From contig CAJJAW010000005.1 of assembly GCA_905182195.1 (NCBI GenBank), positions 124,001 through 188,000 of the forward strand: 64,000 nt of DNA. The letters are read 5' to 3'. The translations under genes and the position numbers were made by a program. The notes below the pieces were generated by a model. The model saw only the letters and a list, made by a program, of their open reading frames with translations, searched no databases and was not told the DNA's origin. This DNA comes from Alphaproteobacteria bacterium UBA4588 (GTDB taxonomy: Bacteria; Pseudomonadota; Alphaproteobacteria; Rhodobacterales; Rhodobacteraceae). Shown here one piece after another: positions 15,697 to 41,733 of this stretch (positions are counted from its first letter, which is position 1; each line of letters opens with the position of its first letter).

Positions 15697-16701
15697 CTAG
15701 ATTGATGGAACTGGAATGTTTTCCTGGACCCGGTAGAGGTTGATCCGGCGGCGGTCGTCTTGCGGCGATAGCCCAAAGGCATATTTATAGTGTTGCACCA
15801 TGGGGGTAGTGGACCCATAGCCAACTTGCAGGGCGATTTGGGCCATACTATCTTTAGAATACATCACTAACTGGCGCGCTGCCTTCATGCGCATAGAACG
15901 GTAGTAATGTGATGGGCTTTGGCCAGTAGCCTTCTTAAAACTACGCTCAATTTGCCGAGCTGAGACGCCAACCTCATCAGCCACATCAGCCACAGATATT
16001 GGTTCAGTCAGATTGGCGGCAAATACGGCCACTGCCTTAGCCACTACCAGCGGCAGAGTGGCGTCGGTTGAAGTTTGTCGGTATGTTGGAATGCTTTGGC
16101 GCACTCCCTCACCCCGCATCAAAGGATGCTGAAACCAACAAGCCACTTCTGTGGCAACATCAGCCCCCAATCGAGTCTCAATCAGCCGCAGAGACAAGTC
16201 AAACGCCGCCGCCGCTCCAGAGGCGGTATAACGGCGTTGCGATACTTCTATTACCTGATTTGAAGCCTCTATTTCAGGGAACTCAGAGCGAAAAGCCGCC
16301 TCATAACACCAATGCACTGAGACAACCTGCCCAGCCATTACCCCTGAACGAACCAGCGGAAACACTCCTCCACTGACACCACCTAGGATTGTTCCGTGGC
16401 GGCTCAGCGCGCGCAAAGCACCGTAACCCACCTTTGGATTGGAAAACCCGGCCATCGGCGGGCTAAGTAAAAATAAATAATCAGGCCCCTCTGCCTGTCC
16501 CAAGACCATATCCGGCTCAAAGTTCACCCCAGCGCTAGAGCAAATTTTATCCATAGTTTCCGCCATAAGCGTCCAAGAGAAAGCATCTTGGCCCGAGATT
16601 TCGTTTGCCGCACGAAGAGGCTCGATCATTGAGGTCAAACAGGCCATCGGAAAGCCGTCAAAGATCAAGAAGCCAATTGACTGGGTTTTCATATCATTCA
16701 T
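15697..16701 (-). CDS. GlxA-family transcriptional regulator (DJ-1/PfpI domain plus AraC-type HTH), intact copy
   Basis: This is a 334-residue regulator. Residues 1 to about 190 form a glutamine-amidotransferase-like (DJ-1/PfpI) sensor, starting IGFLIFDGFPMACLTSM. Residues about 220-325 form a double AraC HTH with SVADVADEVGVSARQIERSFKK and MAQIALQVGYGSTTPM. This architecture is that of GbdR, which controls glycine betaine and dimethylglycine catabolism in Pseudomonas, so a role in switching on mgd/mgs methylamine genes is likely but inferred. It converges on mgdD and is divergent from the XRE gene, with 68 bases between starts. Its first 96 codons lie inside the duplicated segment. Confidence 0.85.
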   Translation of the reverse strand: MNDMKTQSIGFLIFDGFPMACLTSMIEPLRAANEISGQDAFSWTLMAETMDKICSSAGVNFEPDMVLGQAEGPDYLFLLSPPMAGFSNPKVGYGALRALSRHGTILGGVSGGVFPLVRSGVMAGQVVSVHWCYEAAFRSEFPEIEASNQVIEVSQRRYTASGAAAAFDLSLRLIETRLGADVATEVACWFQHPLMRGEGVRQSIPTYRQTSTDATLPLVVAKAVAVFAANLTEPISVADVADEVGVSARQIERSFKKATGQSPSHYYRSMRMKAARQLVMYSKDSMAQIALQVGYGSTTPMVQHYKYAFGLSPQDDRRRINLYRVQENIPVPSI

Positions 16702-17505
16702 ATTTATGATACTAACAGGAAAACTAATACCAAGATCAAGAGACCAATGAGAAAGATCAGGGTGGATTTATGAATATTGAAAAAATAACACCTGAAAAGG
16801 CCTCAAAACTAACGCAAAATCCACACGTCGTGCGTGAGGAGCGCGAAAAAGTGCTGGAGGTTGCCATCGGCCGCGAGGTTCGTGCCTTTCGTCGTCGCCA
16901 AGAAGTTACAGTGGCCGAATTGGCCACCACAACCGGGCTTTCTATAGGGATGTTATCCAAAATTGAGAATGGCAATACCTCACCCTCTCTCACAACCTTA
17001 CAAACCTTGGCTAATGCCCTGTCAGTCCCGATTACCTCATTTTTTCGTAGGTTTGAGGAGCAACGCCAAGCCATACACACCAAAACTGGCGAAGGTGTTG
17101 AGACTGAGCGTGCCGGTACCCGCGCTGGTCATCAATACAATCTTTTGGGCCACATTGGAGCCAATGCAAGCGGAGTGATTGTAGAGCCATATTTAATAAC
17201 TCTATCGACTGAATCAGATGTGTTCCCAACCTTTCAACATGGCGGGATTGAAACCATCTATATGCTGGAAGGCGAAGTTGATTACCGCCACGGCGATGAA
17301 GTTTATCCGCTTAAGCCAGGTGATACGCTATTTTTTGATGCTGATAGCGCCCATGGGCCAGAAAAACTGGTTCGATTGCCTGCACGGTATCTCTCAATCA
17401 TCAGCTACCCACAAAATACACAATAACGCAGCTCTAAATTAAAAAATTTACACCCTAAGCTCTTGCAAAAGGTGGAATTCAGTGCAGCTAGATGCTGAAA
17501 TATAG
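16414..17505. repeat. 1,092-bp direct repeat, left copy (5' glxA plus XRE-cupin gene)
   Basis: Bases 16414-17505 recur at 40642-41733 in the same orientation with identical length and an offset of 24,228. The only difference I noticed is G at 17374 versus A at 41602, changing Arg to Gln in the XRE protein. To the left the copies diverge abruptly inside glxA; to the right they diverge about 80 bases after the XRE stop. No IS-like inverted ends, transposase or target duplication is visible at either junction. This left copy carries the intact glxA. Confidence 0.93.
16770..17426 (+). CDS. XRE-family regulator with C-terminal cupin (copy 1)
   Basis: This 218-residue repressor/activator has an N-terminal HTH (VRAFRRRQEVTVAELATTTG, then SIGMLSKIENGNTSPSLTTL) at about residues 30-85. 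A cupin domain follows at about 130-215 (GGIETIYMLEGEVDYRHGDE, LKPGDTLFFDADSAHGPEKL). Such XRE-cupin proteins sense small amines or amino acids through the cupin (PuuR-like). Divergent from glxA and next to mgd, it probably controls the methylamine genes. Residue 202 is Arg in this copy and Gln in the second. Upstream signals lie in the 68-base glxA/XRE gap. Confidence 0.88.
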   Translation: MNIEKITPEKASKLTQNPHVVREEREKVLEVAIGREVRAFRRRQEVTVAELATTTGLSIGMLSKIENGNTSPSLTTLQTLANALSVPITSFFRRFEEQRQAIHTKTGEGVETERAGTRAGHQYNLLGHIGANASGVIVEPYLITLSTESDVFPTFQHGGIETIYMLEGEVDYRHGDEVYPLKPGDTLFFDADSAHGPEKLVRLPARYLSIISYPQNTQ

Positions 17506-17674
17506 AAAAAGAGGCCCATATAGCAGGCTTTAACGCAAATTATTTTTTCAAAGATGGCTCACTATGCTCGTCTGGCCGAACTCCAAAAGCATCAGGGAGT
17601 TCAGATATAAGGCGTGTTATGTCGTTAGCGGGTACGCGCCCTTCGATTAAGTACCTTCACTTTAATGGTAATAA

Positions 17675-19198
17675 TCAGCATGACTGTTCGTAAGCGTGAG
17701 CAGCTCGCAAAACTGTTGCATCGTCAAAAAGCCGGCCAGTCAACATTAGACCGATTGGCATCCCATCTACTGAGTGCACAGGAACCGAAATAGAAGGATG
17801 TCCAGTTAGGTCGAAGGCCGCGGTATTCGCCACCATATTCAAGGCCTGATCTATGTGTTCTTTACGATCAATCTCTGGCAATGCAGGTAGTTTGTGTGCT
17901 CTCTGGGGAGTTGTTGGCATTAACAAAAGATCAACGTTTTCAAAAACTGCGTTATATGTTTCTGTAAGAATGCGCGACATGTTCTGCGCACGGGCATAAA
18001 AAACGCCATCATATTTTGTTCGCATATATTCAGCTACTAACGCGCCCATTTTGGCCGTTGGAGATAAATCATGGCTGTGTGTCTTCAATCCACGCATCAT
18101 AGCGCTGATCAGACGGGGGTTATAGTATCCTTTTGTCTGGTACGCGGCATGACCGCTATTAAAGCTAGACAGCCCTCCTTCGATGGCTATGGCATTCCAT
18201 AAGGGCGGCACTCTGGTATGCATTGGGATTGAAATCTCAGCCACATCTGCTCCCATAGACCTTAACTTTTCTGCCGCTCCAAGTACCGCCGCGTTGACGG
18301 ATTGAGTTGCATGCGCCGTTTCAAAAGCCTCTTTCACTATTGCAATTTTAAGCCCCTTTATGCTCCCGCTCAGCATAGAAATGTAGTCTGGCACTGAAAC
18401 ATTAGTTGGTTGCCGTGGATCAATTGCGGTATCGTCCTTGCCTGCGATAACTCCTAACATAAGCGCACAATCTTCAACTGTAGATGCCATCGGTCCAACA
18501 TGGTCAATTGTTTGATCAAACCCAACAATACCAGTGTAAGGTACCAAACCGTGAGTTGGTTTATGTCCCACTATTCCTGAAAATGAAGCAGGAATTCTAA
18601 TTGACCCCCCTTGATCTCCCCCTAATGTTATATCAACTTGGTTGCTGGCAATCGCCGTTGCTGAGCCATGCGACGATCCGCCCGGCGCGTATGTTGGATC
18701 CACTGGGTTTAGTCCGGCCCCATAAACACTGGTATGCCCACCTCCAGAAAAAGCAAAATCATCGGTATTCATTACCGCTGTAATATGTCCCCCTGCTTCT
18801 AGAATTCTCTTCGTGACCGTGGCGTCAATATCTGAAGTGTAGTCATACAATAGGCGAGATGCGCAAGTCATCGGCAAACCCGCAACACAAATAGTATCTT
18901 TTAGCCCAATATTTTTGTTAGATAAAATACCACTTTCAACCAAAGGTGTCGCTCGGACACTGCAATACCTGACAATTCCATTAAGTGGGTCTTCAGCTTT
19001 TTCAGGTCTAGAACTCGGTATTCTGACAGCAGGGATTACCTCCCTGACTGGATCTGGAAACTGATCTAAAACATCATATCCATCCAAAACTTTCGCAATT
19101 ATTGGTTGGAGCACAGCAAGTTCATCCTGGGTAAGTTCAATTCCTGTTTTCTTACCAATTTGCTCAAGCTCTTTTGTATCTGGACGTCTTAAGGTCAT
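17675..19198 (-). CDS. Amidase-signature family hydrolase
   Basis: This is a Ser-Ser-Lys amidase, about 507 residues. The catalytic Lys is in NIGLKDTICVAG, the first Ser in GGSSHGSATAIAS, and the nucleophile in GGDQGGSIRIPASFSGIVG. The substrate is unknown; the setting suggests an amide that feeds the neighbouring ammonia-releasing enzymes. I start at ATG 19198 (MTLRRPDTKELEQIG). The open frame continues upstream to 19342, but that stretch is basic and hydrophobic and unlike the family. The frame ends EQSC at 17675; a +1 reading would end ADYYH, a more usual amidase tail, so the last few residues may be affected by an indel. It is the first gene inside the repeat-flanked island and faces leftwards. 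Confidence 0.85.
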   Translation of the reverse strand: MTLRRPDTKELEQIGKKTGIELTQDELAVLQPIIAKVLDGYDVLDQFPDPVREVIPAVRIPSSRPEKAEDPLNGIVRYCSVRATPLVESGILSNKNIGLKDTICVAGLPMTCASRLLYDYTSDIDATVTKRILEAGGHITAVMNTDDFAFSGGGHTSVYGAGLNPVDPTYAPGGSSHGSATAIASNQVDITLGGDQGGSIRIPASFSGIVGHKPTHGLVPYTGIVGFDQTIDHVGPMASTVEDCALMLGVIAGKDDTAIDPRQPTNVSVPDYISMLSGSIKGLKIAIVKEAFETAHATQSVNAAVLGAAEKLRSMGADVAEISIPMHTRVPPLWNAIAIEGGLSSFNSGHAAYQTKGYYNPRLISAMMRGLKTHSHDLSPTAKMGALVAEYMRTKYDGVFYARAQNMSRILTETYNAVFENVDLLLMPTTPQRAHKLPALPEIDRKEHIDQALNMVANTAAFDLTGHPSISVPVHSVDGMPIGLMLTGRLFDDATVLRAAHAYEQSC

Positions 19199-20453
19199 AG
19201 TATCACCCGCTAGTTTATTGACAAAAATGTGAAAGTTTGGCTTGGGCTGATTTTTACCACTATGAACAAATTTATTAATTACAAAAGTAATCCAATTAAC
19301 CCATATTTTAGCGTAATAAAGGACATGAAGCAGTTTCTTCATATCAAAAAATAGCCGCGCTTTACTGTTTTCTCGGCTAAAGTATACTAAAGATACAAAT
19401 GCAGTGTCATAATCTCAAAAATTTTTGGATGCCCTAATGACTTAATTTGCTCTTTCTCAAAAATGTTAGCTGGTATTAACGAAGAAGAAAAGACAATAAA
19501 GGAATAAGCCATTGAATAATTAAATTATGCATATTTTCTGAATTTCTGTAATATCTAAGTTTTCAGTTGAAGTATTGGACGTGGTAGCTTCCTCTAACGT
19601 CCTAATAGCTTCTCTTTTTCGTACGCACCTACAACAATGTTAGTTGGAGCAGTATGTGCGCCGACAGCGCTAGGACTATTAGATTGCTCCGTTGTTTCTT
19701 GATGATGCTACGATCTGTGGCCGGAATAAGAGCTATCGTTATGCTGATGTAGACACTCGTGGCTCGGATAGCTGGCAGGGTGGGCAGTTGCATATGAAAG
19801 TTGGTCAGTAGAGTGTGATATATGCTTGCCTGGTGGATTGCATTTTCTGCGTATTAGGTAAAATAGTAACTCGTATCAGTAATGGGTTGTTTTATCCGGA
19901 ACGGTGCAATGCAAATCAAGCCCTGCGAACAGCATGAAACCAAGCCGCACTCCCAAACTTTCTTTCAGTTTTGGGTCAGACAGCCCATGCTATTGGCCAA
20001 TCAGCAGACATTTAAACAAAACAATCTCATCATATCCCTAGGGGTCTAGACCCGATCGATTCAAACCGCTCTTCAGAAGTGGCAAAACCAAAGACCAATC
20101 GATAACCGCGTCAACTTTGCAAAAAACATTTTGATCCCCATCCGACGCGCGCTCTCCTAGCTGAAAATATCCATAAAAACTCCAATGTGATTTTCTAAAG
20201 CATACAAAATTCACCAGTTTGAGGAATACAGAAACTGTGCAGAGGTCTTTATAGAAGATGCAATAATTGAACTTATAAAAGAAATTTACGGCAAGAGAAT
20301 GAACTATATCGAAAGGTTTACATTCAAATACTCAAGTATGTGGCTAAAAAAATCATCACATTATCAACTTTATAATTACTTGGTAGAATTATCTCTATTT
20401 CTTGGTTAACATCTTACCGTGGCACTACAGAGGTCTCGCGTAGGGTTATAAAC
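19199..20453. other. 1.25-kb AT-rich region without a convincing gene
   Basis: All six frames are short. The longest stretch with protein-like composition is 20191-20409 on the plus strand. It has 72 open codons, rich in Glu, Lys, Tyr and Ile (KAYKIHQFEEYRNCAEVF at its start), and ends YLVELSLFLG, but it lacks a start codon until ATG 20299, leaving only 36 residues. It could be the tail of a decayed gene. I recognise no transposase or integrase remnant. The region must contain the promoter for the amiE operon at its right end. Confidence 0.55.
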
Positions 20454-20494
20454 GCTTCAGTACAGAAGCACCAACTAGTGGCAACGTTGCCACT
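20454..20494 (+). promoter_or_regulatory. Tandem hexaloop hairpins, candidate ANTAR (AmiR) antitermination target
   Basis: Two small hairpins are separated by 7 bases. The first is GCTTC-AGTACA-GAAGC (20454-20469). The second is AGTGGC-AACGTT-GCCACT (20477-20494), a perfect 18-base palindrome when read as DNA. Both have six-base loops beginning with A, and the second has G at loop position 4, matching the two-hairpin motif known to bind ANTAR-domain antiterminators. The first loop has A instead of G at position 4. They lie 185 bases upstream of amiE, and an AmiR homologue is encoded at 34660. A T-rich run at 20543-20554 follows, but I see no strong terminator stem before it. Confidence 0.55.
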
Positions 20495-20678
20495 TATGAG
20501 TGTAATTCTAAGCAGTTAAAGATCCAAAGCTGGAAACCCAAGTTTTCTTTTTTTGTGAGGCTTAGAGCATTACTGTGATGTTCTAGTTCAGCGATTACCC
20601 TAAACACTCAAATCAATTTCTTTTCGTGCAAAGCCGACTGGCTGGCCGACACTTCACTCATTTAACAGGAGAAAAAAT

Positions 20679-21722
20679 ATGAGACATGGAGACATATCAA
20701 GTAGCCCGGACACAGTAGGTGTTGCGGTAGTAAATTATAAAATGCCTAGGCTTCACACTAAGGCTGAAGTTCTTGAAAATGCTGAAAAAATTGGTGAAAT
20801 GCTGATTGGAATGAAGACTGGTTTGCCAGGCATGGATCTGGTGATATTTCCAGAATACAGCACACAAGGTATCATGTACGATTCTAAGGAAATGTTTGAA
20901 ACCGCGGCGCAGATCCCTGTCAGTTGTAAAAAAGGGGTTGCCCGTGCCTGCAGAAAAGCTAACGTTTGGGGGGTATTCTCGATTACCGGTGAGCAGCATG
21001 AACAGCACCCACATAAAAACCCGTATAACACATTAATTTTAATGAATAATAAAGGAGATATTGTTCAGAAATATCGCAAGATTATACCTTGGTGCCCCAT
21101 TGAAGGATGGTCACCTGGTAGCGAAACATTCGTTGTAGATGGACCCAAGGGCATGAAAATCTCTTTGATTATTTGCGATGACGGCAATTACCCAGAAATT
21201 TGGCGTGATTGTTCGATGCGTGGAGCCGAATTGATCGTGAGATGCCAAGGCTATATGTACCCTGCTAAGGAGCAACAGGTGCTGATGTCCAAAGCAATGG
21301 CTTGGGCGAACAATTGTTATGTGGCTGTTGCAAATGCCTCGGGTTTTGATGGGGTCTACAGTTATTTTGGCCACTCAGCTATTATTGGTTTTGATGGCAG
21401 AACGCTTGGGGAATGTGGCGAAGAAGATATGGGCATTCAGTATGCGCAGCTTTCAGTGTCTCAAATTCGTGATGCTAGGGCCAATGATCAGTCGCAAAAC
21501 CATCTCTTCAAGCTGCTGCATCGAGGGTATACCGGTGTCCATGCTTCCGGAGATGGCGACCGTGGCGTTCCAGACTGCCCCTTCGAATTCTATCGTAACT
21601 GGGTTAACGATGCAGAAAAAACCCGCGATGACGTAGAAAAGATTACCCGAAAGCATGTGGGCGTGGCATCGGCGCCAGTTGGTAACCTCCCCACCGGAGC
21701 TACAGAAAAAGAACACGGATAA
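20679..21722 (+). CDS. amiE: AmiE, aliphatic amidase
   Basis: AmiE hydrolyses short aliphatic amides (acetamide, propionamide, possibly formamide) to acid and ammonia in the cytosol. The 347-residue protein is colinear with Pseudomonas AmiE. The nitrilase-type catalytic triad is in place: Glu59 (FPEYST), Lys134 (YRKIIPW) and Cys166 (IICDDGN). The N-terminus MRHGDISSS and the [17 protein letters not shown] block are nearly diagnostic. Residues 81-89 (VSCKKGVAR) differ from the usual GEETEIFSR without a length change. AGGAG precedes the ATG. It heads a two-gene unit with amiB, 70 bases downstream, and lies behind the candidate ANTAR leader. Confidence 0.94.
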
Positions 21723-21792
21723 CTTTGTAAGAGTGGCACGCACTGATGATGCCCAGTGCGTGCTTGAAAAGACAATAGATGGGAGATTAATA

Positions 21793-22926
21793 ATGCCATT
21801 TTTGACGGACCGTATTGAGGAAAATAAGCGGAAAATGGTGGAAGGTGAACGGCTGGCGCATGAGGAGGCACGCCATTCCGATTCAGCTGATTTATTGGTT
21901 AACCCGATCTATCAAAATAGGTACTCCTTTACGCCTGAAGAGGTGCGAGGTGAGCTTGAAAAAACAATTTTTGGACAGAAAAATACAATTAACCTAATAG
22001 TAGATATCATGAAAGTAACATGTGTTGGTCTGTCAGATCCCCGGAAACCGTTGGCATCTATCCTATTTACTGGGCCGACTGGAGTAGGAAAAACTGAGTC
22101 AGTGCGCAGTGTTGCAAGGGCAGTGCATGGCACATCAGAAGCATTGTGTCGTATCGACATGAACACGCTTTCACAAGAACATTACGCGGCGTCTTTTTCG
22201 GGTTCTCCTCCAGGCTATGTGGGGTCAAAAGAGGGCATGACACTGTTGGATCAGGAAAAGATAGAAGGGTCTAGTAGCTTGCCGGGTATTGTCTTATTTG
22301 ATGAGTTGGAGAAGGCCAGCAATGAAGTGGTTTTAGCCTTAATGAATGTTCTTGATAATGGTATTTTGACTGTAGCCTCTGGCGAACGAACAATTTCGTT
22401 TCGGAACTCCATTATTTTTATGACCAGTAATATTGGCGCTTCGACGAACTTATCATTGTTTTCCAGATTTTCGAGGTCTTTCAGAGAATCGTTCCCGTCG
22501 ATGTGTTCGGATCAAGAGCGAAGACAGGACAGCATAATCATTTCTGAGTTATTAAAGGTCTATCCTCCTGAATTTGTTAACCGGATTGATCACGTCGCAC
22601 AACTTTTGCCGTTGGATGCATCAACAATGCGCTTACTCGTGGAGTATCAAGTTCAGCTTCTCAACCAACGATTATCAGCTCGAAATATACATATCTCAAT
22701 CGATGAAGAGGTAATGAATTTTCTTACAATTAAAGGGTTTGATACGCGATTTGGTGCACGGGAGTTGCGACGAATTTTTCGCTCCTTTTTTGAGTTCCCT
22801 TTGGCGAGATTTCTTGCTGTGATTGAGCCTGTGCCTGAGGGAAACAGATCAATACTAGAAGTTGTTGCGAAAATGTCAGGCGGTGCAGTTAAATTTTTGC
22901 CCCTCGCCATACCCGCAAAAACCTAA
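21793..22926 (+). CDS. amiB: AmiB-like AAA+ ATPase (ClpB family)
   Basis: This is a 377-residue Clp/HSP100-type ATPase found behind amiE in amidase operons; its exact job there is not established. A single AAA+ module has Walker A GPTGVGKT at residues 94-101, Walker B IVLFDELEKAS and sensor/arginine region PPEFVNRIDH. A ClpB D2-small domain follows, with GFDTRFGARELRR. The ATG at 21793 has GGGAGA upstream; the longer frame from 21655 overlaps amiE in another frame. The 3' end overlaps the convergent urea-channel gene by 4 bases. Confidence 0.82.
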   Translation: MPFLTDRIEENKRKMVEGERLAHEEARHSDSADLLVNPIYQNRYSFTPEEVRGELEKTIFGQKNTINLIVDIMKVTCVGLSDPRKPLASILFTGPTGVGKTESVRSVARAVHGTSEALCRIDMNTLSQEHYAASFSGSPPGYVGSKEGMTLLDQEKIEGSSSLPGIVLFDELEKASNEVVLALMNVLDNGILTVASGERTISFRNSIIFMTSNIGASTNLSLFSRFSRSFRESFPSMCSDQERRQDSIIISELLKVYPPEFVNRIDHVAQLLPLDASTMRLLVEYQVQLLNQRLSARNIHISIDEEVMNFLTIKGFDTRFGARELRRIFRSFFEFPLARFLAVIEPVPEGNRSILEVVAKMSGGAVKFLPLAIPAKT

Positions 22927-23798
22927 CGCATTGATAGTTTTTTATCTAGCCACCCACGTCCCCAGAAAGTGATCCAAGCTGCGAGCACAAAAGGAAATGT
23001 AAGCGCGGGGATACCTATGTAGATTACTCCACAGTAGATTAGAAAAGACAATAATATTGCGACAAGTGCAGTAATGATATCGCGCAACGACTTGCCTGCA
23101 AATGCGATTGCACAAAGAACACCGTTATACCCAAATAGCCCAAGATTGATTGCGTCGGTGGGCAAACCAAAGGACAGTGCCACCAGCATGCCGATACAGG
23201 ACGCACCAATGGTAAAAATGCCTGCAACCCAATTATTTATTGTAATTGCAGTAACTAAAAGAAGTCCAGTAACTGCGTATTCCTGAAAAAAAACTTGCCC
23301 AGTTCCTCGGAAAACGGCTTGCATAAAATTTAAACGGTCCCCTTTGCCAAGCGACCAAGGAATTATCTCAAACGAGCCTGTTGCTGTAAATAACAGCATG
23401 ATTAACCAGGTGGTAATGACGAACGGGAAAGTAAATGGCTGCCACCCTTTGAGCCGCATATATTGCATAATGATGGTTGATGCAGAGGCACCTAGAAGGA
23501 CAAAAATGACTAGTGATAATATGGGGCTATAAAAATAGCCCAGCCCAAACCCCACTAAAGCACCATTGAATCCAAACAAACCGTTTCGGATATCCTTTGG
23601 GCTGAACCCGAAAATTACTGCAGTTAGAGTACCAGCCGCGCTTCCAATAAGACCTAAAATAGCCAGTGGCACAGAATTGATAGCTGAGCCTACTAGGAAA
23701 ACCATTCCAACACCAACAGACGGTTGAAGCATGATTTGGGCTAAGCCTATGAGGGTATTTTTGATACTCTGAATTACAATGGAGATATGTTTGTCCAA
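22923..23798 (-). CDS. UT-family urea channel/transporter
   Basis: This is an inner-membrane urea channel of the SLC14/Yut family, 291 residues and mostly hydrophobic. The internal two-fold repeat typical of the family is clear: GLFGFNGALVGFGLGYF near residue 75 and GLFGYNGVLCAIAF near residue 225. It would give passive high-flux urea entry, complementing the ATP-driven Urt-type system next door. It is the only gene in 20.6-40.5 kb on the minus strand. Its 5' end faces urtA across a 685-base gap, so both are probably controlled from there. Confidence 0.88.
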   Translation of the reverse strand: MDKHISIVIQSIKNTLIGLAQIMLQPSVGVGMVFLVGSAINSVPLAILGLIGSAAGTLTAVIFGFSPKDIRNGLFGFNGALVGFGLGYFYSPILSLVIFVLLGASASTIIMQYMRLKGWQPFTFPFVITTWLIMLLFTATGSFEIIPWSLGKGDRLNFMQAVFRGTGQVFFQEYAVTGLLLVTAITINNWVAGIFTIGASCIGMLVALSFGLPTDAINLGLFGYNGVLCAIAFAGKSLRDIITALVAILLSFLIYCGVIYIGIPALTFPFVLAAWITFWGRGWLDKKLSMR

Positions 23799-25785: not shown

Positions 25786-25796
25786 GAAAAACAAAC

Positions 25797-25828
25797 TCAG
25801 CCAACTGCCTACGTTGGTGGTTGGCTGA
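25797..25828 (+). terminator. Stem-loop after urtA
   Basis: A 9-bp perfect stem (TCAGCCAAC / GTTGGCTGA) with a 14-base loop begins 12 bases after the urtA stop. There is no T tract, so it probably protects the urtA message end or causes partial termination, lowering expression of the permease and ATPase genes relative to the binding protein. Confidence 0.55.
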
Positions 25829-25869
25829 TATCTACACCCGAATAACCAAAAATAGAAGAATTGAGAAAA

Positions 25870-26742: not shown

Positions 26743-26786
26743 ATTTGGATATGAGAATAAAAGCTTGTCAAGAAGAGTAAGGTAAA

Positions 26787-27890: not shown

Positions 27891-27900
27891 GGGCACGGAT

Positions 27901-29856: not shown

Positions 29857-29900
29857 ACATTGCAAAATTAACTTAGGAAGTTTGTGAAGGGAAAAGACAA

Positions 29901-32359: not shown

Positions 32360-33433
32360 ATGTCCTTGCAAGCAGATCTAATGCATCCAGAGTTTGGTTA
32401 CTTTGACGAGAGGTTAAATCTTACTGAGTTAACGACCTATGAGAAATCTGATCTCCCGTTTGGTATTGCTCAAACTCTTCATCCTGTCGCATATCGGTCA
32501 AAAATATTTCTGGAACTTGAGAATGAGCATATATGGACCCGGGATTGGGTTGCTATTGGGCTAACGCACGAAATCAAAAATTCAGGAGACTTGCTGCCCT
32601 TTACTGTTGGCTTCCATGGTATTCACGTGCAACGGCTTCCCAACAAATCTATTCAGGCTAGATTTAATAGGCACCAACACGGCGGTTGTCGGTTTGTTCC
32701 GGTGCAATGTCGCACTGGAAAACAAACTAAATGTACAATTGCGTCTTGTAATTATACTCGGGACGCCCCGGCTATGAAGGCGTCAAAAGAAGGCGGGAAC
32801 TCTGATGAAATGTATAAATTCCTTGGGTTAGTACCGGAAAAATTGCGTGATGTCGCTTACACTACTATCGGGCCTGTTATTTTCGTTAATGTGAACCCAC
32901 AATGCCTTCCGTTATCTGACGACTTTGAAATAACTAATGCGCTTTCTGAGGGTTGGCGTGAAAATGACAATATAGACGTAAAATTTGAATGGCAGGATCA
33001 TTCCTGCAACTGGAAACTCTTTGGCAAAGAGTTTATGAGAGAAGCGCTTTGGGACAACCCGCCAGCTTGGCGATACCCTAATTTATTGAACGGTCAGATA
33101 GGTGCAACAAACGTTATCGCTATTTTACAATCAACGGGCCCTGGGAATACGCTGGTAAGATGTTTTGTGTCTGGTGGTTCGCCTGAGGACCTTAAAGCTG
33201 CATTAAAACAATTACAGATTATTGGAAGCGCAGCCAGTCAAGAACAAATCGAACTTTCTAATTGGAACACTTCCAGTCGACCAGAGACGATTGGGTCTAC
33301 CTTGCCGACTGAAACTAATAAGGCGGCCTATGAGATGCACCGATATTTAATTACCCGGGTGACAGCGGTACACGAACAATTTGGGAATGTTCCTATTATG
33401 GACGCAAGAATGTTGCAGAGAGGGCGAGGTTGA
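32360..33433 (+). CDS. Rieske-oxygenase alpha-subunit-like protein with non-canonical metal ligands
   Basis: This 357-residue protein resembles ring-hydroxylating oxygenase alpha subunits in overall layout: an N-terminal Rieske-like region (residues about 55-140) and a C-terminal START-like domain (from about 175). The Rieske ligands are altered. The first CxH position reads H105-Q-H107 and the CxxH position reads C125-T-I-A128. Four Cys (110, 117, 125, 130) crowd the same region. In the C-terminal domain the usual iron-binding HxxxxH helix reads NWKLFGKEFMREALWDN with no His pair. It is therefore either a redox-silent paralogue with a structural role or an enzyme with a different metal site. 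It sits between the dimethylformamidase gene and a Sel1 protein that it overlaps by one base. Confidence 0.68.
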   Translation: MSLQADLMHPEFGYFDERLNLTELTTYEKSDLPFGIAQTLHPVAYRSKIFLELENEHIWTRDWVAIGLTHEIKNSGDLLPFTVGFHGIHVQRLPNKSIQARFNRHQHGGCRFVPVQCRTGKQTKCTIASCNYTRDAPAMKASKEGGNSDEMYKFLGLVPEKLRDVAYTTIGPVIFVNVNPQCLPLSDDFEITNALSEGWRENDNIDVKFEWQDHSCNWKLFGKEFMREALWDNPPAWRYPNLLNGQIGATNVIAILQSTGPGNTLVRCFVSGGSPEDLKAALKQLQIIGSAASQEQIELSNWNTSSRPETIGSTLPTETNKAAYEMHRYLITRVTAVHEQFGNVPIMDARMLQRGRG

Positions 33434-34119
33434 TGGCGAAAAACACTTCCATCAAATTGCAAGATCAGGCGCGCAATCTTTATTCAAAGGGTGATTTTCT
33501 TAAAGCAATTGGCATATGGGAAATTCTTGCTAAAAGTGGTGACGCAGAGGCTTTTGCTTGGTTGGGGTCGTGCTATGCTAACGGCGATGGTGTTGAAGCA
33601 AACGATGAAAAAGCTTTAGAATTATATGAATCTGCCGCTAAAAAGGGAAATGTTTTAGCTCAATCAAATGCTGGAGCATTTTATTTCATGGGCCGAGGAG
33701 TAGTAAAAGATATCAAAAAAGGATTATTCTGGTTAGAAAAGGCTGCCAGCAATAATGATGTTAATGGTTTGTTCAACTTAGCTCAGATTTATTTTCAGGG
33801 TGATTGCGTTGAGAAAGATCAAACCCGCGCGGCGGAGCTGTATCGTAAGGCAGCCGAAAACGGTCATTACCCCTCTCAATCAAGACTGGGGTTCATGTTT
33901 GCGCAGGGCACGGGGGTCACTAAAGATCGAACACAGGCGTACCTCTGGCTCACGATGGCAGCACAGCATGGAATAGGCAGTGCCCTTGATGCTTTAGAAT
34001 CTATGGTGAAGGAAATGTCTGTCGAAGAGAAGTCCCAAGGTCAGCAGTTATTTGCGAGCTGGAGAGCTAAAACAGGCCAATATAAAAATCAAATAGCTCT
34101 TATGCCGTCGCCGAGTTGA
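33433..34119 (+). CDS. Sel1-repeat protein
   Basis: This is a 228-residue soluble protein with four Sel1-like repeats of about 36 residues over roughly residues 38-190 (GDAEAFAWLGSCYANGDGVE; VLAQSNAGAFYFMGRGV; NGLFNLAQIYFQGDCVE; SQSRLGFMFAQGTGVTKD). No signal peptide is seen, so it should be cytosolic, unlike many secreted Sel1 proteins. Such repeats bind proteins. The ATG overlaps the stop of the Rieske-like gene (TGATG), so translation is coupled, which suggests that the two proteins work together, perhaps in assembly. Confidence 0.85.
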   Translation: MAKNTSIKLQDQARNLYSKGDFLKAIGIWEILAKSGDAEAFAWLGSCYANGDGVEANDEKALELYESAAKKGNVLAQSNAGAFYFMGRGVVKDIKKGLFWLEKAASNNDVNGLFNLAQIYFQGDCVEKDQTRAAELYRKAAENGHYPSQSRLGFMFAQGTGVTKDRTQAYLWLTMAAQHGIGSALDALESMVKEMSVEEKSQGQQLFASWRAKTGQYKNQIALMPSPS

Positions 34120-34465: not shown

Positions 34466-34659
34466 TATATGAATCTTACCGCTAACATGTTAGTAATTAG
34501 ATTAGTGAACTAAATTACACCCGGCCTATAGATTTAAAATATATATGAATTACTAAATTTTCTTGAGCTAAAAAGAACTGTTAAGAAATTGGATAATATT
34601 TAAAATAGAATATTAATTAAACACTTTACTTATAGCCTTGGTGGAATGGGGTTGATAAT

Positions 34660-35268
34660 TTGCTTCAGAGTTTAAAAGGATTAAAAGTTCAATTGATTCA
34701 TCAACCCGATGAGGATGGGTTGATGATAGAAGATCATTTAAAACGAATTGGCTGTACGTGCGAAACGACCTGGCCGATGCCCGAACATATAAATAAATCA
34801 GTTGATGTGGTGTTATTAAGTATTGAAATGTCACATAGAACTGATATTTTAAAGCTAGCATCTAATATAGAAGATAATAGTATAACTTTCCTAGTTATTA
34901 CTTCATATGAAAATCCTGAAACTCTTCAAACAATCTTAGATTGTAATGCTTTTGCAGTAATAGGAAAACCAATTCGTTCGTTTGGATTTTTAGCAAATCT
35001 AACAGTTGCACGTAATCTTTGGCTTGCGAGAGAGAAAATAAAAAGTAAGCTTTGTAAGTTAGAAAAAGAATTTTCTGCTAGTGTTAGAATTTCAAAAGCT
35101 AAAGAAATTTTAATGTCACAAACTGGAATTAATGAGAGTGAAGCTTACAAAAAAATTCGGAAGCAAGCTATGTCTAAAAGAATTACTACGGTTGATATTG
35201 CCAGTGCTATTATAAATGCACACGAACTATTGAGCCCTAATGATAATCCGGAAAAAAGAAGTGATTAA
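34660..35268 (+). CDS. amiR: AmiR/NasT-family transcription antiterminator (ANTAR domain)
   Basis: This 202-residue protein resembles Pseudomonas AmiR in length and layout. A degenerate receiver domain occupies residues 1-120 (KGLKVQLIHQPDEDGLMIED, IGCTCETTWPMPEHINKSVD) without the phospho-Asp pocket. A coiled-coil linker follows (LWLAREKIKSKLCKLEKEFS), then a C-terminal ANTAR helix bundle (ISKAKEILMSQTGINESEAY, KIRKQAMSKRIT). ANTAR proteins bind paired hexaloop hairpins in nascent RNA and prevent termination; a candidate target precedes amiE at 20454. The start is TTG 34660. In Pseudomonas AmiR is held by AmiC; here the only family member is the UrtA-like protein, which carries an export signal, so how the ligand is sensed is open. 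Confidence 0.86.
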   Translation: MLQSLKGLKVQLIHQPDEDGLMIEDHLKRIGCTCETTWPMPEHINKSVDVVLLSIEMSHRTDILKLASNIEDNSITFLVITSYENPETLQTILDCNAFAVIGKPIRSFGFLANLTVARNLWLAREKIKSKLCKLEKEFSASVRISKAKEILMSQTGINESEAYKKIRKQAMSKRITTVDIASAIINAHELLSPNDNPEKRSD

Positions 35269-35309
35269 AATTAGAAAAAAGAGAAATCTTCTTGGGTTTA
35301 TAAAATCTA

Positions 35310-35777
35310 ATGTCGGTAGATAGAATGAAGCGTATTAGCTCTATTTTTGGACACGTGTCTGATGCACGAATTTCCAAATTACTACACGAATTAGATCATC
35401 AAAACCTTGTTGAGACGATAACTCTTCTACCAGAAGATCTTAAAAGGCATAGATTGAAGGTAAAAACTGATAAAGATCATCAAGTCGCAATTTCTATCCC
35501 TCGTAATATAGCATTGGAAGATGGCTCTGTATTATGTTTGGAAACCGATCGGGCAATTATAATATGTGCCAGTAAGCAGAAGTGGCTTGTTATCACAGCT
35601 AGTACCCCAGCATTAGCTATCCAACTTGGGTATCATGCTGGAAATCTGCACTGGAAAGTTCGCTTTCAAGGGGCAGAATTACATGTCGTAGTGGTTAGTT
35701 GTTATAAAGATTACACTGATAGGCTGCATGACTTGTTTAAACCTGGTGATCTTTTATGGAGAAAAATGGAGGAATAA
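35310..35777 (+). CDS. ureE: UreE, urease nickel metallochaperone
   Basis: UreE delivers nickel to the urease assembly complex. The 155-residue protein has the N-terminal domain (RHRLKVKTDKDHQVAISIPR) and the metal-binding C-terminal block LAIQLGYHAGNLHWKVRFQG. There is no His-rich tail; it ends KPGDLLWRKMEE. ATG 35310 has no clear ribosome site, and ATG 35325 (MKRISSIFG) is an alternative. Its coding end contains the ribosome site of ureF. Confidence 0.88.
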   Translation: MSVDRMKRISSIFGHVSDARISKLLHELDHQNLVETITLLPEDLKRHRLKVKTDKDHQVAISIPRNIALEDGSVLCLETDRAIIICASKQKWLVITASTPALAIQLGYHAGNLHWKVRFQGAELHVVVVSCYKDYTDRLHDLFKPGDLLWRKMEE

Positions 35778-35782
35778 TTTTT

Positions 35783-36457
35783 TTGTCAAACGAACTACTG
35801 GCGGCGTTGCAACTATCTGACAGCACTTTTCCTTCTGGGGGCTTTGCATTCTCGCAGGGTCTTGAAGCAGCACATCGACGATCGGACGAGATTGGTCGAT
35901 TTGATCTAGAAGGGTTTATAGAAAATCAGATTAGGCATCGTTGGGCCTTGGGAGACCGTGTCGCATTGGTCCGGGCCTATCGTTTGAGCACCTCATTAAA
36001 AGAACTTGAAGCGTTGGATAGGGAGATAGAGGCAAGCTTGGCAATCGAGCCACTCAGAAAAGGGTCTCAACGTAATGGAGGGGCTTTGCTGCTAACATTT
36101 GAACGGATGGGTAATGAAAGGGCAGGCCAGTATCGAAGTAGGATCCGATCTGGGACAGCTATTGGCCATTTGCCAATTGCCCAGGCTTTGGTGTGGTACG
36201 ACCAGAACCTGAGCGAACAAACTGTTGTGGCAATTAGTGGCTATCAATGCATTTCAAACATCACGGCTGCTGCAGTTCGTATGGGCTTGGTTGGTGCAAT
36301 TGATGTCCAGAGAATAATTAAGCGGTTGCTGCCAATTATCACAGTGGAATCAAGGCGCGAAGTTGCCGTAGGTGAATTAATATCGTCTTTTGTTCCGTTA
36401 TCAGAAATAGCCTTATGTTTGCCGAATAAGTCTGGGCAAAAGCTGTTTTCTAATTAG
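35783..36457 (+). CDS. ureF: UreF, urease accessory protein
   Basis: UreF is part of the UreDFG complex that loads nickel into apo-urease. Family blocks are LLAALQLSDSTFPSGGFAFS near the N-terminus, GFIENQIRHRW and the C-terminal VESRREVAVGELISSFVP. I prefer the TTG at 35783 because a perfect GGAGGA (35768-35773) lies 9 bases upstream; an ATG at 35756 overlaps ureE but has no ribosome site. It is about 224 residues. A 60-base gap with its own ribosome site leads to ureAB. Confidence 0.87.
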   Translation: MSNELLAALQLSDSTFPSGGFAFSQGLEAAHRRSDEIGRFDLEGFIENQIRHRWALGDRVALVRAYRLSTSLKELEALDREIEASLAIEPLRKGSQRNGGALLLTFERMGNERAGQYRSRIRSGTAIGHLPIAQALVWYDQNLSEQTVVAISGYQCISNITAAAVRMGLVGAIDVQRIIKRLLPIITVESRREVAVGELISSFVPLSEIALCLPNKSGQKLFSN

Positions 36458-36517
36458 ACGAGTCAACTTTAGCGCCACCTAGGAATAGGTTTTTGGGATT
36501 TAAATCAGGAGGTTATT

Positions 36518-37213
36518 TTGCTTTTAACACCAACAGAAATGGAACGGCTAACTATATTCACTGCTGCAGAGCTGGCTAGAAAGCGTAAGTTGAGAGGCTT
36601 AAAACTTAATTATCCAGAGACTGTGGCGTTGATTTGTGATGAAATTCTCGAGGGTGCTCGTGATGGACGGTCAGTCGCAGAGATGATGGCTTTCGGTTCT
36701 CAAATACTCAGTGAAAAAGATGTCATGGCGGGCGTGTCTTCCATGCTGCCGATGTTGCAAGTGGAGGGTACATTTCCTGATGGAACAAAACTTGTGACGG
36801 TTCACGACCCAATCCGTCCCGATGGCGAAGCGGGGGAACCTGCGTTAGAGCCGGGAAAATTGATCCATGAGGATGGTGAAATTGAAATTAATAAAGGTCG
36901 AAAAAAAGTGAGCCTTATTGCCATCAATCGGGGGGACAGACCTATACAAATTGGGAGCCACTATCATTTTTTTGAAGTGAATAAAGCCCTAGATTTTGAT
37001 CGTAAAAAAGCATTTGGTATGCGCTTGGATATTCCAGCAGGGACTGCCGTAAGGTTTGAACCGGGACAAGAAAAATCAGTTGAATTAACTAGTTTTGGTG
37101 GGCGACAGGAGCTGTCCGGCTTGAATGGATTGACAAACGGAAGCACACGAGACCCAAAAGTTAAAGAGCGAGCGTTTGCAAAAGCGCGTAAAAAGAAATT
37201 TCTAGGAATATAA
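36518..37213 (+). CDS. ureAB: UreAB, fused urease gamma-beta subunit
   Basis: This is a structural subunit of urease with the gamma subunit (residues 1-100: [34 protein letters not shown]) joined to the beta subunit (about 108-231: [14 protein letters not shown], the signature [10 protein letters not shown], and the [12 protein letters not shown] end). Fusion is familiar from Helicobacter UreA but uncommon in free-living alphaproteobacteria, where ureA and ureB are normally separate. The start is TTG 36518 behind AGGAGG. The C-terminus is extended by about 20 Lys/Arg-rich residues. It is followed by ureC after 13 bases. Confidence 0.9.
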
Positions 37214-37226
37214 AAGGCGATTTAAA

Positions 37227-38939
37227 ATGGCGATTATGTCGAGGAAAGAATATGCTGCAATGTATGGCCCCACTGTCGGTGACGGATTAGTTCTTGGAGA
37301 CACTTCTCTCGTTGCGGTAATTGAGAAAGATTACGCAGTGTATGGGGATGAGTGCCTTCACGGCGGTGGGAAAACTTTACGTGACGGCGCTGGAATGGCA
37401 GCAGGAGTAACTAGTGCGCAAGGCGCATTAGATCTTCTTCTCTGTAATGTAGTTGTAATTGATGCTGTGTTGGGCGTTGTTAAGGGCGATCTTGGTATCA
37501 AAAATGGCCAAATTGTTGGTATTGGCAAAGCTGGTAATCCCGCCACAATGGATGGAGTTGACCCAGAGCTAATTGTTTCGGCGAGTACAACAGTTCGCGA
37601 TTGTGAGGGTTTGATTGCAACTGCAGGCGGTATTGATGTACACGTACACTTTGATAGTGCTCAACTTTGTGAACATGCAATTTCATCTGGAATTACTACA
37701 ATGCTTGGTGGGTCATTGGGCCCCATTACAGTTGGTATTGATAGTGGTGGGCCGTTCAATGTTGGCAAAATGCTTCAGGCCTCAGAAGCTTGGCCGATCA
37801 ACTTTGGCTTCCTTGGTAGAGGGAACTCGCATCGGCCAGAATCTTTAGTTGAGCAAATGCAGACAGGCTGCCTAGGTTTGAAGTTGCATGAAGATTGGGG
37901 AACAATGCCGGCCGCTATTGATACATGCTTGAAAGTAGCGGATGAGTTAGATTTTCCAGTTCAGATACATACAGATACTTTAAACGAATCGGGTTTCTTA
38001 GAAAGTACGATAGAAGCAATTGCGGGTCGCACTATCCATATGTATCATACTGAAGGTGCCGGCGGCGGGCATGCCCCTGATATTATTCGGGTAGCTTCAT
38101 TTCCTTGGTGTTTACCTTCATCAACAAATCCAACAAACCCATATACGGTCAACACTTTTGATGAGCATTTAGATATGACGATGGTCTGCCATCACCTAAA
38201 CCCCTCAATTCCTGAAGATGTGGCCTTTGCTGAAAGTAGAATCCGTGCGCAAACAATTTCTGCAGAGGACATACTACATGATCTGGGTGCAATTTCTATG
38301 TTGGGATCAGATAGTCAGGGCATGGGAAGGATTAACGAAGTAATATGTCGTACTTGGCAACTTGCTGACAAAATGAAAAAACAGCGGGGAAGATTAGATT
38401 CAGAGCAAACTAAAATTGGGGATAATGAAAGAATAAAGCGATTTATCGCCAAATACACTATTAACGCCGCCCGTACTTTTGGGATATCTGAGCACGTTGG
38501 TTCATTAGAAAAAGGAAAAATGGCTGACGTCGTCATTTGGAACCCAAGCTTTTTTGGGATTAAACCGGAATTAGTGGTCAAAGGTGGCTTCATAGCCTGG
38601 GGTTCCATGGGGGATAGCGCGGCATCTTTGATGACATGTCAGCCTCTTATGCTCAGACCTCAGTGGGGAGCTTTTGGTCGTGCTAAGCAGGCTTTGTCGG
38701 CATGCTTTGTAAACCCTTTGGCAATTGATTTCGGATTGTCAGATACTCTCGGAATGGAAAAACCACTTTTGCCATCTAAAGGTACACGTAAACTGACAAA
38801 ATCCGACATGATCCATAACAACGCATGTCCCGATATTCAGGTTGACCCTCAAAGCTTTGACGTCTTTGTTGATGGCGAATTGGCTACCTGCGAGCCAGCA
38901 AAAACACTGCCTTTAACCCAATTATACATGCTGAGATAA
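37227..38939 (+). CDS. ureC: UreC, urease alpha subunit (divergent)
   Basis: This is the catalytic subunit, 570 residues. All nickel and catalytic residues can be placed: His139 and His141 (GGIDVHVHF), carbamylated Lys219 and His221 (LKLHEDWG), His248 ([12 protein letters not shown]), His274 ([12 protein letters not shown]), Cys321/His322 and Arg338 ([20 protein letters not shown]), and Asp362 (GSDSQGMGR). Two usually invariant stretches differ. The sequence after HVHF is DSAQLCEH instead of ICPQQ, and the substrate-side loop reads [13 protein letters not shown] instead of GTGPATGTNATTCTPGP. It is thus a functional-looking but outlying urease. Changed specificity within the amide island is possible but unproven. 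Confidence 0.9.
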
Positions 38940-38988
38940 GGCCCACTTAAATATTAACCACGTGAAAGAAATAAAGAGGAGTGAGCAA

Positions 38989-39594
38989 TTGGGTGCAGCG
39001 AGGGTAGGTATAGGAGGTCCCGTAGGGTCTGGGAAGACTGCTCTGATTGAGCAAATGCTACCAGCGTTTAAAAGCATCGATATTTCGATTGCGGTTATAA
39101 CGAATGACTTGGTAACTGCAGAGGATGCGGATCGCATCAGGAGATCAGGCTTGATAGATCCTGAACGTGTTGTAGCGGTTGAAGCGGGTGCTTGCCCACA
39201 CACTGTTATAAGAGAAGACCCTACTCTAAACATTACGGCGGCTGACGAATTAGAAATTAAATTTCCAGATTTAGATCTTATTTTGATTGAAAGTGGAGGC
39301 GACAACCTTGCGTCCACATTTTCGTTAGATTTGGTTGATTGGTGGATGTTTGTCATTGATGTTGCTGGAGGGGACGACATACCACGAAAACGTGGCCCGG
39401 GATGCCTCCAAAGCGATCTTTTGGTGATTAACAAACAGGATTTGGCGCCCTATGTGGGAGTAGACTTGGATAGAATGTTGCTAGAGTCAAAAGAAAGCCG
39501 TTCTGGTAAACCCGTTATAGTAACAAATTGCCGTGCTCAAATGGGTATCAACAAAATAGTTGATCTTATTGTCGAAGAAGTCTTGCTTTTATGA
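38989..39594 (+). CDS. ureG: UreG, urease accessory GTPase
   Basis: UreG provides GTP hydrolysis for nickel insertion. The P-loop [17 protein letters not shown] is at the N-terminus. It is followed by [20 protein letters not shown], the nickel-site [13 protein letters not shown] (the usual Cys-Pro-His), [16 protein letters not shown] and [13 protein letters not shown] use TTG 38989 with GAGGAG 7 bases upstream; GTG 38962 is in frame but lacks a ribosome site. It overlaps ureD by 4 bases. Confidence 0.9.
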
Positions 39595-40460
39595 CTTACA
39601 AAAATTTTAATCTAGATGTGGATAAAACGGGTGAAATCCCGGAACGTGTTGGCCACTATGAGTTGGAATTTTTAAGATTCGGTGAAACAACTAGAATAGG
39701 CAAACAATTTGTTTCATATCCCTTTCACATGACACGACCATTCGCATTAGATCGTAACATACCCTTCCTATCGACTGTTTATCAGCAGTCCTCATCCGGA
39801 GGAATGTATCGTGGAGATCGGCTTTATTCAAAGATTAAGTTATTTGACTCTGCATTTGCTCAGGTGACAACTCAGGCCGCAACTATGGTTCAAAATTGTT
39901 ATGGAAAGCCGGTCAGACAATTTTTGGAAATTAATACGTCAAATAATTGCTTTTTTGCCTACACACCAGATGTACTAGTGATGTTACCAGGATCTGCTGT
40001 CATTTCTGATACAACAATAAGCCGTGGCCAAGGGTCAGTAATTTTATTTATTGATGCATTTGACACCTTTGACCTGGGTCAAAAGGGACAAGTATTTGAT
40101 ATGATCTCTGCCAAGACTAAAATATTTGGACCTAAAGGAGACCTAGTTGCATTAGACTGTTTTCACATAACTGGACGCAGTTTATTAGAAGCTAATTCAC
40201 CTATTGGATCTTGGCGCACTGTCATTAACTGCCTTCTTTTGGGTGACTTGGAAACTCTTCCCTCTCAAGAAGTCCTAGAAGCCTGTGGGATAACTACGCA
40301 AGATTGTATAATAGGCGTGTCGAACCTACCAAATGGAGCAGGCCTTTGCCTTCGTGTGCTTTGCAAAAGTTCAATAGCAGCAAAGTTGGTAATGAATCAA
40401 ATTTTTTCAAAATGCATAGTACATCTAACTGGGTACTATCCAGAGCCTCGAAAAAAATAG
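39591..40460 (+). CDS. ureD: UreD, urease accessory scaffold protein
   Basis: UreD (UreH) bridges apo-urease and the UreF/UreG chaperones. The 289-residue protein has the family pattern: [55 protein letters not shown], then [20 protein letters not shown]. UreD at the end of the operon is unusual, since many alphaproteobacteria have it first, but the gene set EF-AB-C-G-D is complete. Translation is coupled to ureG through an ATGA overlap. It is the last gene before the right-hand repeat. Confidence 0.88.
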
Positions 40461-40482
40461 GCTTGTAGCGGTTAATTGGAAA

Positions 40483-40929
40483 TTATAGTATCTGGCATTC
40501 ATCGATGGCGGGTGCGACCAGACGGGCTAGTCCGATTCTAAAGGCAATATAAAGTGCAACGGTAGCCACCAGGAAACAGAGTCTGGAGGCGATGCTGAGC
40601 TGATAATAGGGCGCTGACTTTCCTCTTGGATTGTTGGACATCAAAGCACCGTAACCCACCTTTGGATTGGAAAACCCGGCCATCGGCGGGCTAAGTAAAA
40701 ATAAATAATCAGGCCCCTCTGCCTGTCCCAAGACCATATCCGGCTCAAAGTTCACCCCAGCGCTAGAGCAAATTTTATCCATAGTTTCCGCCATAAGCGT
40801 CCAAGAGAAAGCATCTTGGCCCGAGATTTCGTTTGCCGCACGAAGAGGCTCGATCATTGAGGTCAAACAGGCCATCGGAAAGCCGTCAAAGATCAAGAAG
40901 CCAATTGACTGGGTTTTCATATCATTCAT
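40483..40929 (-). pseudogene. Truncated glxA copy fused to an unrelated 53-residue tail
   Basis: The first 96 codons (40929 to 40642) are identical to the intact GlxA-family regulator at 15697-16701 and lie inside the right repeat. After GYGAL the frame leaves the repeat and continues 53 residues to a stop at 40483, giving MSNNPRGKSAPYYQLSIASR and a hydrophobic helix (LCFLVATVALYIAFRIGLA). The DNA-binding half is absent, so it cannot act as the regulator. The tail may be a fragment of a membrane protein on the incoming DNA, or chance sequence. Its stop lies 22 bases after ureD, which converges on it. Confidence 0.85.
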
Positions 40930-41733
40930 ATTTATGATACTAACAGGAAAACTAATACCAAGATCAAGAGACCAATGAGAAAGATCAGGGTGGATTTATG
41001 AATATTGAAAAAATAACACCTGAAAAGGCCTCAAAACTAACGCAAAATCCACACGTCGTGCGTGAGGAGCGCGAAAAAGTGCTGGAGGTTGCCATCGGCC
41101 GCGAGGTTCGTGCCTTTCGTCGTCGCCAAGAAGTTACAGTGGCCGAATTGGCCACCACAACCGGGCTTTCTATAGGGATGTTATCCAAAATTGAGAATGG
41201 CAATACCTCACCCTCTCTCACAACCTTACAAACCTTGGCTAATGCCCTGTCAGTCCCGATTACCTCATTTTTTCGTAGGTTTGAGGAGCAACGCCAAGCC
41301 ATACACACCAAAACTGGCGAAGGTGTTGAGACTGAGCGTGCCGGTACCCGCGCTGGTCATCAATACAATCTTTTGGGCCACATTGGAGCCAATGCAAGCG
41401 GAGTGATTGTAGAGCCATATTTAATAACTCTATCGACTGAATCAGATGTGTTCCCAACCTTTCAACATGGCGGGATTGAAACCATCTATATGCTGGAAGG
41501 CGAAGTTGATTACCGCCACGGCGATGAAGTTTATCCGCTTAAGCCAGGTGATACGCTATTTTTTGATGCTGATAGCGCCCATGGGCCAGAAAAACTGGTT
41601 CAATTGCCTGCACGGTATCTCTCAATCATCAGCTACCCACAAAATACACAATAACGCAGCTCTAAATTAAAAAATTTACACCCTAAGCTCTTGCAAAAGG
41701 TGGAATTCAGTGCAGCTAGATGCTGAAATATAG
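40642..41733. repeat. 1,092-bp direct repeat, right copy
   Basis: This is the second copy of 16414-17505 in the same orientation, carrying the 5' end of glxA (minus) and an intact XRE-cupin gene (plus). The left junction at 40641/40642 falls inside glxA. The right junction at 41733 is about 80 bases after the XRE stop and leads into the SnoaL-like gene and mgsABC. Recombination between the copies would excise a 24,228-bp circle. Confidence 0.93.
40998..41654 (+). CDS. XRE-family regulator with C-terminal cupin (copy 2)
   Basis: This 218-residue protein is identical to the gene at 16770-17426 except for Gln in place of Arg at residue 202 (KLVQLPARY). HTH and cupin domains are intact. It has the same 5' region, including the first part of glxA, so it should be expressed from the same promoter. 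As the copy next to mgsABC-gmaS-tmm it probably represents the original right-hand neighbour of those genes, now duplicated by integration of the island. Gene dosage of this regulator is therefore two. Confidence 0.88.
   Translation: MNIEKITPEKASKLTQNPHVVREEREKVLEVAIGREVRAFRRRQEVTVAELATTTGLSIGMLSKIENGNTSPSLTTLQTLANALSVPITSFFRRFEEQRQAIHTKTGEGVETERAGTRAGHQYNLLGHIGANASGVIVEPYLITLSTESDVFPTFQHGGIETIYMLEGEVDYRHGDEVYPLKPGDTLFFDADSAHGPEKLVQLPARYLSIISYPQNTQ

Follow-up and report, generated by a model that had tools for sequence, protein, structure and literature searches.

The 64-kb stretch of DNA analysed here (the window; positions 124001-188000 of the fifth contig of assembly G000, which comprises 2,623,753 bases in 12 contigs) appears to be the trimethylamine/methylamine locus of a presumed Planktomarina strain. 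It contains an island of genes for amide and urea use that is bounded by a 1,092-bp direct repeat. Two events seem to have shaped this region. The dimethylamine genes dmmDABC look to have been deleted at the left edge of the island, and the extra copy of the repeat at the right end is, with a probability of about 60%, a recent local duplication of flanking DNA. The apparent strain-level loss of dmmDABC is the most useful of these results. The rearrangement is real, recent and made of known parts, and the preliminary description of this DNA, which explained it by the integration of a circle, misread one step.

The repeat lies at 16414-17505 (left copy) and 40642-41733 (right copy), both on the plus strand, at a spacing of 24,228 bp. 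The copies differ at one position in 1,092 (17374 in the left copy, where the left copy has G and the right copy has A) and share their first 960 bp without any difference, while past either end not a single further base is identical. In a repeat search of the window with a minimum length of 100 bp, this was the sole direct-repeat family, seen as a 300-bp identical core at the same spacing, and no inverted repeats of at least 100 bp were found. A DNA search of the whole assembly with the repeat returned both window copies at 100% and a third copy at 98% on contig C11 (13,582 bp). Neither the window nor C11 contains an N. The evidence throughout is assembled sequence, and the pairing of flanks with copies is therefore as assembled.

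The left copy is colinear with C11 and with related genomes, and on this comparison it is the native glxA-xre, only the right copy being extra. At the left copy, glxA, which encodes a GlxA-like AraC-family regulator (15697-16701, minus strand; HTH_18 match), is intact and occupies the same place as in relatives. It is followed by the native xre (16770-17426, plus strand), whose domain matches indicate a regulator with helix-turn-helix (HTH) and cupin domains and which relatives keep beside glxA or mgs. The right copy, as judged from the repeat comparison and its differences to C11, carries the 5' part of glxA and the whole of xre. Its glxA is cut after about 96 codons, and the reading frame stays open into an EamA-like gene fragment, forming a 148-aa open reading frame (ORF; 40483-40929, minus strand). 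The preliminary description thus had the repeat right in coordinates, equal length and single mismatch, as well as in reporting a glxA that is intact on the left and truncated and joined to foreign sequence on the right.

Contig C11 would show the locus before the loss. Its positions 1-9465 align with 8143-17589 of the window at 98.2% identity. The divergence is patchy: with gap columns counted, the first 3.5 kb contains 10 differences, and 500-bp stretches toward the right end reach as many as 33. Of 93 base differences counted across five genes, 75 fall at third codon positions, a pattern as between strains, and we infer that C11 is most likely a contig of a second strain in the same bin. 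Its gene order is glxA-xre-dmmDABC. Past xre, on the minus strand, come a HODM-alpha-like protein, a reductase with a DmmA-like domain, DmmA and a GcvT-like protein that is taken as DmmD. Next to these genes, 110 bp match the beginning of a C4 CoA transferase gene without a difference; after a spacer, the contig stops with 51 bp of a DUF411 gene. The stop coincides to the base with the start of the left island edge in the window (17582-17584), which holds the next 74 bp of the same DUF411 gene with a two-base overlap in the numbering of the gene in genome G017. On the simplest reading, C11 represents an alternative path and would rejoin the main contig at 17584, and in the other strain the island is then very likely placed right of dmmDABC. 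Two genes that the window has complete (7980-9050 and 12090-14471) are broken up in C11 (3-909 and 3949-6905), either by sequencing errors or as broken genes. Contig C12 was considered as a second redundant contig and rejected, as the first 12,000 of its 19,592 bases have no long second match.

At the left edge, native sequence continues beyond the repeat. The 84 bases 3' of the left copy (17506-17589, plus strand) are common to the window and C11, align also with genomes G018 and G005, and contain the 3' end of the first dmm gene, identified as HODM-like from C11. The boundary between native and foreign DNA therefore lies at 17582-17589, not at 17505. There the scrap of the DUF411 gene begins (17582-17655, plus strand, assigned by sequence comparison), the preceding 51 bp of which form the tail of C11. 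A short homology is present at the junction, ACTCCAAAAG on the dmm side and AATCCTAAAG in the DUF411 gene of G017. The junction looks like a deletion scar of dmmDABC that joins the HODM-like 3' end to the DUF411 scrap, and not like the crossover product proposed earlier. The left edge of the repeat is ruled out as an integration point because native sequence runs on to 17589, and the 74-bp segment, which has matches in several relatives and was considered as an attachment site, turned out to be the piece of the DUF411 gene. The only DmmA match in the bin is on C11, so the window strain would be without DmmA if C11 belongs to another strain; DmmA is present in 11 of 20 genomes of the genus. The genes tmm and tdm are retained in the window (NF058570 and NF053776, above cut-off). 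A second HODM-like gene, with a lower score, is found on contig C3, and such genes occur in most genomes of the genus.

The right copy is probably recent by comparison with the apparent strain divergence. The left and right copies differ at 1 position, the left copy and C11 at 23, and the right copy and C11 at 22. At the variable site the right copy and C11 share A, so the newer base is most likely in the left copy. For the ratio of 1 to 22, the 95% range is about 0.001 to 0.28, uncorrected for errors in C11. The glxA-xre of the two strains probably diverged before the duplication, or before its last homogenisation, in keeping with the recent event that had been suspected.

Both flanks of the right copy are DNA without a counterpart at this locus in the relatives read. 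On one side is the island end, a truncated EamA-like gene (40461-40641, minus strand), a longer version of which lies on contig C536 of genome G016, flanked by ureD and by the 3' end of a gmaS. On the other side, after three bases, is a piece with a SnoaL-like gene (41769-42170, minus strand); 41737-42153 is 97% identical to C4:33792-34208, and 41737-42206 was not found at the xre-mgsA locus of the relatives read. Native DNA resumes at 42207-42488 (plus strand), which by alignment with relatives consists of a 5' remnant of an ammonium transporter gene and the region upstream of mgsA. It leads into mgsABC and gmaS (42489-46819, plus strand), named by homology and position, gmaS with a type III glutamine synthetase model. 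The SnoaL piece is only partly a plain copy of the C4 gene, since its upstream part (42154-42217) is closer to contig C354 of G016 than to C4. Matches to the C4 segment that holds SnoaL and CoA transferase occur in 5 of the 20 genus genomes. For three of these (G018, G005 and G001) the match is limited to a short stretch before SnoaL, and the SnoaL and CoA transferase sequences are seen in G000 and G016 alone. Pieces of this segment (G000:C4:33792-34415) recur at both island ends. In G016 the CoA transferase adjoins the island amidase, and SnoaL relatives are found both close to this amidase and close to a second urease cluster. That cluster, on C354, is about 53-58% identical to the one in the window and ends near the start of a SnoaL gene.

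The native order can be read from eight relatives with xre and mgsA on the DNA compared (G018, G005, G007, G001, G004, G009, G015 and G012). In seven of them dmm genes lie between xre and mgsA; in the eighth, G012, xre is close to mgsA, with a 155-bp dmm remnant between them and no SnoaL match. The state glxA-xre-SnoaL-mgs, which had been assumed to precede the insertion, is thus not supported by these relatives. None of the eight has island genes at the compared xre-mgsA locus, and in none was an empty site seen in which one repeat copy joins both outer flanks. An ammonium-transporter ORF follows dmm in G018, G005, G007, G004 and G001 (Pfam was run on the ORF of G018) and has no room in G009; G015 is outside this comparison. 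The locus of G012 is split, with mgd-glxA and a diverged xre (65%) at one place and another xre (84%) beside mgs elsewhere (G012:C1:2506023 and 2105255). Selection may maintain an xre copy next to mgs.

From these comparisons we infer the following order of events. An amide/urea island of about 23 kb would first have been placed right of dmmDABC, where five relatives have the ammonium transporter gene. In the window strain, dmmDABC would then have been lost by a short-homology deletion (scar 17582-17589), which would have brought the island beside xre. In a separate and recent event, a second copy of the 1,092-bp glxA-xre piece of the left flank would have arisen at the right end of the island, between the EamA-like fragment and SnoaL. 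The route could be a tandem duplication that was largely deleted again or a templated (template-switch) repair, each of which would yield both new joins. RecA recombination between the copies could now excise exactly 24,228 bp, after which a single glxA-xre would adjoin SnoaL-mgs.

Several points weigh against this history. The pairing of flanks with copies rests on the assembly and is not proven. A tandem duplication requires a second deletion that starts at most 84 bp from the first, and a templated patch of 1,092 bp would be a long one. Microhomology was not found at the two joins of the right copy, so the mechanism of duplication rests on parsimony. C11 could be a second copy inside the same genome. 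Moreover, apparent frameshifts split ORFs of C11; part of its differences may therefore come from sequencing errors, which could distort the age ratio.

The preliminary description proposed a Campbell integration of a 24,228-bp circle carrying a piece of glxA-xre. In the form considered here, a circle with the island and glxA'-xre, formed in a sister strain, would have entered a chromosome with glxA-xre-SnoaL-mgs by one crossover. The part of this proposal that stands is that direct copies of equal length and near identity bound the segment, and the loss of dmm beside xre is known in the genus from G012. However, the empty site that it requires was seen in none of the eight relatives, SnoaL itself is not native there, none of 20 scanned island proteins is a replication or mobility protein, and C11 indicates that the island was already at the locus beside dmm. 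Such an integration is possible only into a strain that had xre already joined to SnoaL, or with a further step, and we consider it unlikely. A mixture of phases is less probable again. Here an empty chromosome (16413-repeat-41734) would exist together with a circle or other molecule (40641-repeat-17506), or in two strains, and the assembler would have picked one path. The assembled order and a chromosome plus circle contain the same four repeat-flank joins and cannot be told apart by assembly alone. The identity of the copies over the first 960 bp means that linking their left flanks needs longer reads or pairs, and the bin appears to mix strains; on the other hand, 12 contigs for 2.6 Mb suggest long reads that are able to span 1.1 kb, and there are no Ns, so molecules with each join probably exist.

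We regard as improbable a variant in which the 24-kb segment is partly a free circle that enters and leaves the methylamine locus by host recombination through glxA-xre homology, without a mobility gene, in a species with strains that vary in dmmDABC. The least probable explanation is a site-specific or transposon-borne island whose recombinase has since been lost. The differing base composition of the island and the scraps of other loci at both its ends are what such an element might leave. None of the 20 proteins is a recombinase, the window has neither a tRNA nor an inverted repeat of at least 100 bp (the search minimum), and the island of G016 has different neighbours and its amidase in the opposite orientation, all of which speak against it.

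The island has a GC content of 42.7% against 49.5% and 49.6% in the flanks. Its earlier description as a nitrogen island is borne out, and its gene types are already known. It begins with an amidase (17675-19342, minus strand; PF01425, NF005565). On the plus strand follow an aliphatic amidase of the AmiE type (20679-21722; NF009802 above cut-off) and a ClpB-like ATPase (21655-22926; domain match), which by position we take to be AmiB-like. A urea transporter of the UT family (22923-23798, minus strand; PF03253) precedes five plus-strand genes of a urea/amide-type ABC transporter (24484-29342), in which UrtE scores above its cut-off and the UrtA model below. The small and large subunits of a putative N,N-dimethylformamidase (DMFase)-like enzyme come next (29404-32294, plus strand), the small one assigned from position and conservation. 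The large one matches PF20254 (E 7.6e-88) and PDB 6lvb (E 1e-152), and its YANE, YDTH and SHPE motifs align with the Tyr, Tyr, His and Glu of 6lvb, presumably the metal-binding positions of the solved DMFase. The pair is accompanied by an oxygenase-like and a Sel1-repeat protein (32360-34119, plus strand; Pfam scan and conservation). Then come an AmiR-type ANTAR antiterminator (34660-35268, plus strand; PF21332, PF03861) and a urease cluster with ureE, F, AB (fused), C, G and D (35310-40460, plus strand; Pfam and NF models).

A Pfam scan of the 20 island proteins, two of which had no Pfam match, found no integrase, relaxase, replicase or transposase, in agreement with the earlier failure to see an integrase or transposase. 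A tRNA attachment site was rejected because the 64-kb window contains no tRNA, and an RNA element was rejected because 15000-43000 has no Rfam match at the gathering score. The 1.3 kb at 19343-20678 lacks an ORF of at least 100 aa; within it, 19880-20254 is 80% identical to G016:C626 and has no Rfam match. A defence role of the ClpB-like protein or of xre was also dismissed, the matches being partial and to general ATPase and HTH models. The oxygenase-like protein (32360-33433) follows the large DMFase-like subunit in all nine named loci and is annotated as a dioxygenase in plasmid pAMI5; the CxH...CxxH Rieske pattern was not found in it.

The run from binding protein through the DMFase-like pair to the Sel1 protein is present in 6 of the 9 named loci compared, and in the remaining three the available DNA starts inside that run. 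The closest named match of the large DMFase-like protein is in Planktomarina sp. ANT-104 (JAPKEA010000108.1, 96%). Among the 20 genus genomes it has matches in six: G000 at 100%, G016 at 96% and four at about 40%. G016 carries the island at about 78-87% DNA identity, with other neighbours and an amidase inverted relative to the window, so the island does not look new to the genus. The proposal that G016 is an island carrier without dmm was withdrawn: its contig C6 ends inside the HODM gene just past xre, and the DmmA miss may reflect incompleteness.

It is known in bacterial genetics that segments between long direct repeats can be amplified or excised. Here, too, 1.1-kb direct repeats bound 24 kb of the assembled sequence. 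The ami operon of Pseudomonas aeruginosa has the order amiEBCRS, and the island resembles it in having an aliphatic amidase, then a ClpB-like ATPase and, further on, an AmiR antiterminator, although its genes are spread out and mixed with those for urea transport, the DMFase-like enzyme and urease. An amide/urea module adjoins the methylamine locus in a marine Roseobacter genus, and the repeats would permit it to be lost in a single step.

Roseobacters and Paracoccus have methylotrophy islands with dmmDABC, tdm, mgsABC-gmaS and mgdABCD (PMC4543880, PMC5520151). The window is like them in its trimethylamine, trimethylamine N-oxide and methylamine genes, and dmmDABC is part of the set in C11 and in most relatives examined; the window strain differs in that dmmDABC is missing at its place, where the amide/urea island lies instead. 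A dmmD mutant built up dimethylamine, and since SAR11 and other bacteria lack dmmDABC, the oxidation of dimethylamine has been described as a bottleneck in the marine breakdown of methylated amines (PMC5520151). If C11 belongs to another strain, the window strain would be expected to convert trimethylamine to dimethylamine but to lack the Dmm route for using the latter. The bin, presumably of Planktomarina, apparently contains both strains with dmmDABC at this place and strains that lack it there, with tmm and tdm retained, and thus such a bottleneck could arise through one deletion within a species.

Small and large DMFase-like subunits, as in the window, are also found on pAMI2 and pAMI5 of Paracoccus aminophilus (PMC4543880). 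The nearest plasmid relative of the DMFase-like protein is on pAMI5 (71.8%), in a stretch that is presumably the pAMI5 locus of that paper. There the pair is followed by a gene annotated as a dioxygenase and one of the AmiS/UreI family; unlike in the island, no AmiR or urease is annotated in the stretch read. According to PMC4543880, this locus has not been linked to the use of dimethylformamide (DMF), and for this reason the name DMFase is held loosely for the island pair and DMF hydrolysis is putative. In the open-licence literature, no paper was found on Planktomarina with the term dimethylformamid- or on a dimethylformamidase gene cluster with urease, and the available part of a survey of metagenome-assembled genomes of Roseobacters mentions neither dimethylformamid- nor methylamine. 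A marine dimethylformamidase paper, in the part available, places a DMFase gene beside rhodopsins.

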